Assembly: GCA_017545865.1 (NCBI GenBank)
Contig: JAFWXO010000026.1
Location: forward strand, 1-51,886
Direction: 5' to 3'
DNA length: 51,886 bases
DNA from: Clostridia bacterium
GTDB taxonomy: Bacteria > Bacillota > Clostridia > Christensenellales > Borkfalkiaceae
Shown here: piece after piece, positions 21,804 to 24,524 of the stretch
Position numbering within the stretch: the stretch's first letter is position 1
Layout of the letters: the number at the start of each line of letters is the position of its first letter
Position numbers and translations under genes: made by a program
The notes under the pieces: generated by a model
What the model saw: the letters and a program-made list of their open reading frames with translations, nothing else
Databases searched by the model: none
Told to the model about the DNA's origin: nothing

Positions 21804-21819
21804 AGTTTGTCAAAATGGA

Positions 21820-21850
21820 ATAAAAGACGGTGAAAAACACCGTCTTTTAT
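21820..21850 (-). terminator. Terminator after the pyruvate formate-lyase operon
   Basis: Perfect 13-bp arms (21820-21832 and 21838-21850, core AAAGACGGTG/CACCGTCTTT) with a 5-base loop of A on the plus strand. The T-rich tail on the minus side is within the stem (CTTTTAT), so some read-through into the phosphatase gene is plausible. Confidence 0.8.
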
Positions 21851-21858
21851 CTTTCAAA

Positions 21859-22092
21859 TTACATGGATTCGTGAATAGTACGTGCGATAACGTCATCTTG
21901 TTGTTCTTTGGTGAGTTTAATGAAGTTAACGGCGTAACCCGAAACTCTAATGGTGAGTTGGGGATATTTTTCAGGGTGTTTTTGCGCGTCAAGAAGCGTT
22001 TCTCTATTGAAAACGTTTACGTTTAAGTGGTGACCACCATCTGCGCAGTATGCATCTAACATATTTACTAAATTTTCAACTTGTTGCGACAT
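21859..22092 (-). CDS. Stand-alone glycyl radical domain protein completing a split pyruvate formate-lyase
   Basis: The 77 residues match only the C-terminal end of pyruvate formate-lyase: [34 protein letters not shown] and the tail [12 protein letters not shown]. The radical-carrying glycine is G52 in RVSGYAV. The preceding gene, pflB, ends exactly where this domain would begin, and has none of its own. The gene has its own ATG and a strong AAGGAG seven bases before it, 26 bases after the pflB TAA, so this is a true second gene rather than a frameshift. E. coli GrcA (YfiD) and phage T4 Y06I are known stand-alone radical domains that repair a full-length enzyme; here the domain would be obligatory. 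Activation by the PflA encoded upstream is inferred. Confidence 0.93.
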
Positions 22093-22118
22093 AATTTTTC
22101 TCCTTATATATTATTATA

Positions 22119-24152
22119 TTAGTCTTCTTTACCGAGCGATGCCGGAGTGATTGAGAAAGTATTAGAAATACCGTCTCTTGAGTGTTCATAGGGAAGTTTT
22201 GCAACCGATTCAAGAGAAGCGAGCGCGCCGTGAGAATCTCTGCCGTGCATGGGGTTAGCGCCCGGAGCAAGAGGTTCACCTGCTCTTCTACCGTCAGGAG
22301 TGTTACCAGTCTTTTTACCGTATACTACGTTTGAAGTAATGGTAAGGATAGACATAGTGGGAACTGAATCTCTGTAAGTATAGTGAGTTCTAATCTTGTT
22401 CATAAAGCGTTTAACAAGGTCAACTGCTAAAACGTCTACTCTATCGTCGTTATTGCCGTATTTGGGGAAATCACCTTCGATTTTGAAATCGGTTACGATA
22501 CCGTCTTCATTACGGATAGGATATACCTTTGCGTACTTGATAGCGGAAAGCGAGTCAGCAACGCAAGAAAGACCTGCAATACCAGTTGCGAAGAATCTTC
22601 TAACTTGGCTATCGTGAAGAGCCATTTCGATTGCTTCGTAAGCGTATTTATCGTGCATGTAGTGGATAAGGTTTAAAGCGTTAACGTAAACGCCTGCAAG
22701 CCAAGTCATCATATCGTCAAACTTTTCCATAACTTCGTTAAAGTCAAGCGCGCCATCAGAAGTGATTGCTTGGTACTTAGGACCAACTTGCATGGGTTTA
22801 CCGGTAACTTTGTCCTTCATAAGTTCGTCTTTACCACCGTTGATAGCGTAAAGTAAGCACTTAGCAAGGTTTGCGCGAGCGCCGAAGAATTGCATATCTT
22901 TACCAGTCTTCATGCAGGATACGCAACAAGCGATACTATAATCGTCACCCATTTCAGGACGCATTAAATCGTCTGATTCGTACTGGATAGACGAAGTCTT
23001 AATAGAAATCTTCGCGCAGAAGTTTTTGAAGTTCTTGGGAAGGTTTTTAGACCAAAGAACGGTAAGGTTCGGTTCGGGCGCAGGACCTAAGTTAATAAGG
23101 GTGTGAAGTACACGGTAAGAGTTTTTAGTAACTAAAGTTCTACCGTCAACGCCCATACCACCGATAACTTCGGTTACCCAAGTGGGATCGCCAGAGAAAA
23201 GTTCGTTGTAAGATTGAATTCTCATAAATCTTACCATACGAAGTTTCATAATGAAGTGATCCATAAGTTCTTGCGCTTCAACTTCGGTAAGAATTCCGTT
23301 TTTAATATCTCTTTCAATATAAACGTCAAGGAAGGTTGAGTTTCTACCGATACTCATTGCTGCGCCGTTTTGATCTTTAACTGCGCCTAAGTAACCAAAG
23401 TATAACGCTTGGATTGCTTCTTGAGCGGTAGTTGCGGGTTCGCTAATATCGAAACCGTAAGACTTAGCCATTTCTTTAAGACCTTTAAGAGCCTTGATTT
23501 GTTCAGAAATTTCTTCTCTATCTCTAATCTTATCAGGAGTCATTTCGCCACAGATTAAAGACTTGTCTTCTTCCTTTTTCTTGATAAGGTAATCAATACC
23601 GTAAAGGGCTACTCTACGATAGTCGCCGATAATTCTACCACGACCATAAGTATCGGGAAGACCAGTTAAAATGTGAGAAGAACGAGCCGCTCTCATTTCT
23701 GGAGTATAAGCATCGAAAACACCGTCGTTATGAGTCTTTCTATACTTGGTGAAGATTTCTTTTACTTTTGGATCGATTTCATAACCGTACATCGAAAGGG
23801 CTTCGGAAGCCATTTTGATACCGCCGAAAGGTTGTAAAGAACGCTTAAGCGGATGATCGGTTTGGAAACCTACGATTTTTTCAAGATCTTTGTCAATGTA
23901 ACCGGGAGCGTGACTAGTTAAAGTTGATACTACGGAAGTATCAGCATCTAAAACGCCACCGTTATCTCTTTCCTTCTTGGAAAGTTCCATTACCATTTCC
24001 CGAAGTTTCTTAGTAGCTTCCGTTGCGGGAGCAAGGAAGGAATCGTCACCTTCATACGGGGTGTAGTTCTTTTGAATAAAGTCACGAACGTTAATTTCGT
24101 CGTTACTCCACTTGCCGGGAATAAATCCTTCCCAACCTTTGTATTGTTTCAT
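22119..24152 (-). CDS. pflB: Pyruvate formate-lyase core subunit lacking the glycyl radical domain
   Basis: This converts pyruvate and CoA to acetyl-CoA and formate in anaerobic fermentation. The adjacent catalytic cysteines are C409-C410 in SIACCVSC, followed by [20 protein letters not shown]. The protein runs colinear with E. coli PflB up to [17 protein letters not shown] and stops there at 677 residues with TAA, whereas PflB normally continues about 80 residues through the glycyl radical loop. Core plus the following 77-residue protein gives 754 residues, close to the 760 of E. coli PflB. The ATG at 24152 follows AAGGAGTACTAAT. A TATAAT at 24175-24180 could be an internal promoter, but no matching -35 was found. 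Confidence 0.95.
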
Positions 24153-24200: not shown

Positions 24201-24524
24201 TTACCTTTGTTTTGATAAATGCTCGTCAACCATCGCGTCAATCCAGAGTTCGAAAATCTCTTGCGGTTGAAAACCCACCGCCCTTGCAAACTCCTTCCCG
24301 TCGTCTAAAAGTAAAACGGTGGGAACTCTGTCAACCGAGTATTCTTGTAAAAAGCCCTTTGTGTTTTCATCGGCTTCTATATGCAAAAGGGAAAGATTAT
24401 CCCTTGCGCCGACTACTTCAAAAAGCATTGGCATCAAAGTTAAACAGTTAGCGCAAGATTCGCCACTAACTTCAATAACCTGAAGACCTTTTAATTTTTC
24501 TTTATAATTAGAGTCGTTAATCAC
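24201..24524 (-). CDS. Thioredoxin-like protein embedded in the pyruvate formate-lyase operon
   Basis: The 107-residue protein has a thioredoxin fold: strand LQVIEVS, the active-site motif C24-A-N-C27, a long helix, and the cis-proline loop DRVPTVLLLDDG. The CANC dipeptide differs from the CGPC of classical thioredoxin and the tryptophan before the first cysteine is replaced by serine-glutamate, so redox potential and partners probably differ. No signal peptide is present, so it is cytoplasmic. Its start overlaps the pflA stop by four bases and it precedes pflB, which ties it to pyruvate formate-lyase function, perhaps keeping cysteines of PflB or PflA reduced. That role is inference. Confidence 0.9.
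   Translation of the reverse strand: MINDSNYKEKLKGLQVIEVSGESCANCLTLMPMLFEVVGARDNLSLLHIEADENTKGFLQEYSVDRVPTVLLLDDGKEFARAVGFQPQEIFELWIDAMVDEHLSKQR

Follow-up and report, generated by a model that had tools for sequence, protein, structure and literature searches.

Our sequence and profile data indicated that the window, the whole 51,886-nucleotide stretch of Clostridia bacterium DNA that was analyzed, encodes a pyruvate formate-lyase (PFL) that is probably an obligate two-subunit enzyme and not an enzyme accompanied by a spare part (probability roughly 0.85, with the function deduced from genomes). On the minus strand, pflA is followed by a thioredoxin-like gene, the pflB core, a gap of 26 nt, a 77-aa open reading frame (ORF), and a hairpin (Table 1). 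The core ends in the segment SLGKED and is closed by a TAA stop. The core alone scored 1081 bits against TIGR01255 (PFL1), over the curated cut-off of 994.2; its stop corresponds to position 662 of the 744 model positions and the remaining part of the model is found in the next ORF, so that the core has no radical domain on the same chain. Taken together, the two parts covered the model almost without a gap. The small protein scored above the NF038360 cut-off (GrcA3, approximately 78 aa) over positions 3–78 of 78; its score against TIGR04365 (GrcA/YfiD, approximately 126 aa) was only 97.8 bits, below the cut-off of 170, and was confined to model positions 62–126. In an alignment with the E. 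coli chain (759 residues), core residue 677 fell opposite residue 678, and the break therefore lies 56 residues before Gly734. Both direct reading of the sequence and profile matches thus agreed with the gene anatomy described in an earlier sequence-only reading of this DNA (core stop after SLGKED, Cys409-Cys410, 26-nt gap, AAGGAG, and Gly52). In a scan for consensus promoters and terminators, sites were no more numerous than in shuffled sequences, and the hairpin at the end of the gene set was not listed there.

Table 1. Features of the split pyruvate formate-lyase locus in the window
Feature	Position	Strand	Evidence
pflA, radical-SAM PFL-activating enzyme, 242 aa	24521..25249	(-)	TIGR02493, 300.5 bits (cut-off 231.75)
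Thioredoxin-like gene, 107 aa, CANC, signature GxxCxxC ... GxQPxEI	24201..24524	(-)	Pfam Thioredoxin, E 6.7e-9; family alignment A1
pflB core, 677 aa; barrel with catalytic Cys pair, lacking the radical domain	22119..24152	(-)	TIGR01255 positions 2-662 of 744
Codons of catalytic Cys409-Cys410	22923..22928	(-)	Read in sequence; invariant in 43/43 aligned cores
AAGGAG ribosome-binding site of small gene	22100..22105	(-)	Read in sequence; inside 26-nt gap 22093-22118
Radical subunit, GrcA3 type, 77 aa	21859..22092	(-)	NF038360, 160.6 bits (cut-off 158); TIGR01255 positions 665-744
Gly52 codon, predicted site of the radical (Gly734 in E. coli PflB)	21937..21939	(-)	RVSGYAV motif; Gly52 lies 25 residues before the C-terminus, the same distance as in E. 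coli
14-bp hairpin, likely transcription terminator	21819..21851	(-)	Directly 3' of small gene; -19.2 kcal/mol, z -5.96 against 200 shuffles

PFL is one of the main ways in which anaerobic gut bacteria convert pyruvate to acetyl-CoA. In the proposed two-subunit enzyme, the barrel, the cysteine pair (Cys409-Cys410), and the sites for substrate and CoA would come from the 677-aa core, and the 77-aa protein would provide the helix, the strand, and the Gly52 loop that constitute the C-terminal radical domain of one-piece PFL. PflA would generate the glycyl radical on Gly52, and the small protein may dock at the barrel mouth and pass the radical between chains to the cysteine pair, with pyruvate and CoA then being converted to acetyl-CoA and formate. 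An oxygen-cleaved radical chain could subsequently leave and a fresh copy could take its place, a replacement that would be made possible by having the radical on a chain of its own. If the radical domain is an obligate separate subunit in the many lineages found to carry the pair, many "autonomous glycyl radical cofactor" annotations would mislabel an essential subunit as an optional repair part, PFL tests expressing the large gene alone would fail, and radical-domain swapping in a living glycyl radical enzyme would become directly testable in a natural system.

The proposal of the sequence-only reading that the radical subunit is obligatory was well supported by the search for an uninterrupted full-length PFL1. 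None was found in the own draft genome (94.85% complete, 33 contigs; a missed copy is possible), whose other glycyl radical enzymes, on contigs 29, 26, and 30, each carry their own radical segment. The full-length form was likewise missing in 20 of 20 split relatives (the absence being less sure in G012, whose core lies in two pieces on two contigs) and in 48 of the 49 split genomes of a second set (less sure in G117, G123, G129, and G135, where the cores are partial); this set comprised 50 genomes, the other being Enterococcus casseliflavus with a fused gene. All 26 genomes of a third set, taken from 392 sampled genomes of which 50 gave a strong match under a strict score that favors stand-alone forms, held the core and the small protein and no uninterrupted full-length PFL1. 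The exception, in the second set, was Claveliimonas bilis (G128), which carries both forms; in total, a full-length PFL1 accompanied the split pair in 1 of the 96 genomes searched (1 own + 20 + 49 + 26). None of four fused relatives contained a stand-alone PFL1-type radical ORF. As a separate observation, a third glycyl radical enzyme, on contig 26 of G000 (L009, 1385-3832), has an odd radical loop, RIHGTFV, and was not reported by the Pfam Gly_radical search.

These data bear directly on the scenario in which the small protein serves, as YfiD/GrcA does, as a conventional replacement part for a full-length PFL encoded elsewhere in the genome, with the truncated core being secondary. Such a function would predict a complete PFL, which was missing in 95 of 96 genomes, including the own draft genome and all 20 split relatives. 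The NCBIfam name of the family (GrcA3, "autonomous glycyl radical cofactor") and the coexistence of both forms in C. bilis speak for a spare part, as does the terminology used for Candidatus Mycoplasma girerdii, whose PFL may or may not be split and whose small radical protein is called a replacement part (PMC5476646, in excerpt) or a potentially associated cofactor (PMC9239101, in excerpt). However, the core has no radical domain of its own, and the small protein has no counterpart of the N-terminal half on which, according to the accessible part of PMC8683613, measurable binding of YfiD to cleaved PFL depends. This scenario is accordingly improbable.

The split PFL shares its family, catalytic Cys pair, radical-domain sequence, and activase with one-piece PFL (E. 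coli PflB, TIGR01255), from which it differs by having the radical domain in a separate gene, the core ending at the residue that aligns with E. coli residue 678. Like GrcA/YfiD, the small protein in the window is a stand-alone radical domain, and it shares the C-terminal 60–65 residues of YfiD; unlike GrcA/YfiD, it is only 77 aa long, lacks the N-terminal half, and has no complete PFL1 that was found for it to repair. According to the available text of a 2021 study (JBC 2021, PMC8683613), only YfiD and phage T4 Y06I, another stand-alone radical domain, had been validated at the time of its publication. In E. coli, GrcA supplied in trans permits formate production with PflB G734A (FEBS Lett 2025, PMC12338860, in excerpt). 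An engineered combination, tPFL:truncYfiD, resembles the split PFL in pairing a core without a radical domain with a free radical domain, but the engineered cut was made at E. coli residue 695 and the natural cut is located 17 residues earlier, so that the residues leading up to the radical loop belong to the small protein (engineered cut from the accessible part of PMC8683613). The same excerpt describes poor in vitro activation (32-fold less) of E. coli PFL cut at 695 and combined with YfiD, and a separate radical domain is therefore not automatically efficient.

The gene pair is already known to databases (NF038360, the RefSeq Collinsella pair, and PDB 38LA/38LB), and the view of the sequence-only reading that the split PFL is a local novelty did not hold: the pair is widespread and database-recognized (RefSeq grcA3), a common variant of a known enzyme. 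Collinsella aerofaciens NZ_OY725717 contains RefSeq pflB and an adjacent grcA3 (NF038360), the same kind of gene pair as in the window, although its core extends as a 17-residue tail after LG whereas the window core ends three residues after LG. The chain of PDB 38LA ("Formate acetyltransferase") ends exactly at SLGKED, as does the window core, and represents either a natural core or an engineered truncation; PDB 38LB, with the same name, differs from 38LA by continuing into a CDMC tail. The nearest loci in our sample to both entries were split cores, and a PDB search with the small protein listed the radical domain in neither of them. Literature searches, with thin coverage of subscription papers and preprints, returned no paper on split PFL, and it is not mentioned in the accessible portions of PMC12288474 and PMC13252398.

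A search of related genomes for a short PflB accompanied by a small radical protein, as proposed by the sequence-only reading, recovered the split architecture at 99 non-duplicate loci. Among 80 loci in named genomes, which were picked by likeness to the small protein and do not constitute a census, 64 had a core at most 450 nt from a stand-alone radical ORF and 2 were fused; at the other 14, the fetched stretch contained no core. All loci pooled (n = 164) comprised 105 split, 43 fused, and 16 without a core in the stretch, and removal of six same-record duplicates from the split loci gave the 99. RVSGYA was kept in all 99 small proteins (76–84 aa), and ACCVS was kept in 95 of 99 split cores, the other four beginning past that point owing to the contig start. 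By record title, the pair occurs in Lachnospiraceae, Oscillospiraceae, Erysipelotrichaceae, Gastranaerophilales, Anaeroplasmataceae, and other lineages. The census of the window's GTDB family revealed a PFL1-type radical domain in 127 of 201 genomes, of which 68 were stand-alone (defined as an open frame below 300 aa), 57 fused, and 2 unclear. Within the window's genus, all seven genomes with this domain, the own genome included, were split, and a further genome (G002) had no match. In an even sample of the phylum, a match was present in 97 of 299 genomes and was clearly stand-alone only in G000 and G354, with short open frames also in G331 and G175.

Comparison with seven congeners gave dN/dS values of 0.013–0.066 for the small gene and 0.035–0.091 for the core, and both genes are under strong purifying selection. 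In a draft such as the window genome (33 contigs), a split might be mimicked by faulty assembly or sequencing or by gene decay; however, the identical architecture in 68 of the 127 family genomes with the domain, its presence on contigs of 0.98–1.56 Mb that are nearly whole genomes, and dN/dS values far below 1 are incompatible with this explanation. Because seven of seven genomes in the genus are split, the split is no sequencing error, and recurrence leaves error or decay with practically no probability. At one other locus (L125), the core shifts frame near its end, the 835-aa frame departing from the PFL match at position 595, possibly through a sequencing error.

A single polypeptide could in principle still arise from the two frames by stop read-through or frameshifting, as both frames are in register with one stop at some loci (e.g., L109, 12 nt after a TAG). 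Across the 99 loci, however, the frame was kept in only 22 gaps, gap length ranged from 1 to 449 nt, and the core stops were of all three kinds (73 TAA, 18 TGA, and 8 TAG). A Shine-Dalgarno-like four-letter motif preceded all 99 small genes, under a start choice that was biased toward such motifs, and the core and the small gene were unlinked in some genomes. Read-through was rejected on account of the mixed stops, the off-frame gaps, and the unlinked genes, and we regard it as very improbable. One in-frame protein formed from the core and the small gene was also ruled out for TGA-recoded genomes, since the core was closed by a genuine stop codon (TAA or TAG in genomes with TGA as a sense codon) in 20 of 20 split genomes read (17 and 3 genomes from the 26- and 49-genome split sets, respectively; 15 read with TGA as tryptophan). 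In TGA-recoded genomes assembled as one contig of 1.2–1.5 Mb, the core and the small gene were approximately 100 kb (G621 and G863) or 470 kb (G674) apart, and both chains must therefore act in trans; the small gene was immediately upstream of pflA in G621 and G674.

To describe the history of the split, core trees of 129 and 62 rows were analyzed, in which split loci were over-sampled, a bias that favors a re-fusion result. Long-tail split cores, with tails such as QVFMGDLDVDL, formed one clade, and short-tail cores of the window type formed another, with 16 fused PFLs nested inside the latter. By the AU test, monophyly of the split cores as a whole was rejected (p 4.8e-53); monophyly of the 13 nested fused PFLs was rejected weakly (p 0.02, 62-row tree). 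The two-state model reconstructed the short-tail ancestor as split (P 0.978–0.997), and the model without re-fusion was 12.5–14.6 log units worse than the free two-rate model. The LG-to-NL spacing was exactly 8 residues in 37 of 37 readable fused proteins (6 of 43 were not readable), whereas the spacing summed over short-tail split pairs was 7–12 residues, with 8 in 25 of 58, suggesting that joining restores a fixed linker. From these data we infer re-fusion within this family, a proposal that is new; many independent splits would be a costlier, although not impossible, alternative. Recombination bringing a distant fused 3' end into the re-fused genes was unsupported, the radical domains of these genes resembling those of the split clade (RTIH ending) in a 77-column tree that was poorly resolved. 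Slower evolution of the stand-alone radical protein was also considered. At core distances of 0.2–0.3, the mean radical difference was 0.061 for short-tail split (765 pairs), 0.095 for long-tail split (450 pairs), 0.116 for nested fused (57 pairs), and 0.219 for other fused (38 pairs), but the order was opposite at core distances of 0.1–0.2 (short-tail split, 0.058; nested fused, 0.047) and the pairs are non-independent, and the idea was dropped.

In the short-tail clade, the thioredoxin-like gene was located between pflA and the core at 47 of the 54 split loci that could be decided (one further locus was undecidable) versus 0 of 16 nested fused loci. Profile A1 of this gene retrieved its own family (E <1e-20) in 11 of 16 split genomes searched, always at the pflB locus; there was no such match in the 16 nested fused genomes, where the lowest E value was 9e-14, or in eight other genomes. 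Among the seven split loci without the thioredoxin, L096, L257, and L260 cluster with fused rows; L059 is placed as the sister of L068/L069. On supported branches, four independent pairs related the thioredoxin to the split, two changing the same way, none the opposite way, and two showing no difference (p 0.5); with only four such pairs, the link is a lead and not proof. A dedicated thioredoxin appears to accompany split but not re-fused PFL, a lead that is new, and we would guess that its role is to maintain the exposed cysteines of an open core in the reduced state. Cysteine was also present in 17 of 40 long-tail core tails, as CC or CxxC in 15 of 40; these tails have been likened here to the C-terminal cysteine pair of some ribonucleotide reductases (PMC5704485, in excerpt). 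Five loci from Gastranaerophilales and kin (L130, L134, L151, L174, and L175) combined a core tail of GCCEGTC or GCCEN with a small-protein tail of SCGC or NCGC. These small-protein motifs do not occur in the second radical copies that were compared from G126, G135, and G136. The paired cysteine tails of the core and the small protein could possibly form an inter-subunit disulfide or a metal site.

The further suggestion of the sequence-only reading, that the radical subunit is exchangeable, gained indirect support from near-identical second radical genes, the unlinked genes on large contigs, and viral copies. In the 12 genomes compared, which do not include all with such a copy (G127 was left out), the second, core-free radical ORF differed from the core-linked copy at 0–6 of 71–73 residues, with zero differences in three. 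The second radical gene was located 28 nt after rubrerythrin in G104. In G855 it precedes, by approximately 110 nt and in the same orientation, a Fur-family gene (PerR as the top NCBIfam match, scoring below the cut-off) and rubrerythrin. The core-free copy was divergent from a Crp-type regulator at L129, L140, L141, L143, and L162, with ferritin near L162; by eye, no obvious oxidative-stress neighbor was present at L099, L117, L121, L160, L322, and L326. The radical subunit may, tentatively, be a consumable: the costly core would be kept while the 77-aa chain is burnt by oxygen and swapped, with reserves beside rubrerythrin or Fur-family genes and copies supplied by phages. In the window's clade the operon thioredoxin would guard the exposed Cys pair, some CC/CxxC tails of long-tail cores might do likewise, as in some ribonucleotide reductases, and the state would be reversible, with re-fused genomes lacking the thioredoxin. 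Alternatively, an obligate two-subunit PFL might owe its split to gene dosage or to easier activation, there being no tethered domain to flip out to PflA, and not to oxygen repair. Unequal expression would be permitted by unlinked genes and by long gaps (median 218.5 nt at 40 long-tail loci), and most core-free radical genes examined had no obvious oxidative-stress neighbor, but the placement of second radical genes next to rubrerythrin (G104) or before the Fur-family gene and rubrerythrin (G855) argues against this possibility, which we consider less likely than not.

In IMG/VR, a relative was encoded at 43 viral loci, 14 in the short form and 29 N-terminally extended. The short form (L268-L281, some near-duplicates) was 76–79 aa long where an ATG start was read, and most of these 14 loci presumably derive from rumen metagenome samples, to judge by sample number. 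The extended proteins (L282-L310) were YfiD-like, on contigs mostly of approximately 110 kb, which we take to be T5-like, and two of approximately 355 kb. Neighbors of the short form included matches to the phage nrdD and nrdG families (L268 and L272), a Gp23-type capsid gene (L275), and an exonuclease gene (L278), and three viral contigs (L269, L280, and L270) carried a PFL core besides the short radical gene. On the viral contigs of L269 (73 kb) and L280 (79 kb), the small gene precedes the PFL core, and the core match contains three in-frame TGA codons, at least two of them at tryptophan positions if no gap is present, which suggests that TGA encodes tryptophan there.
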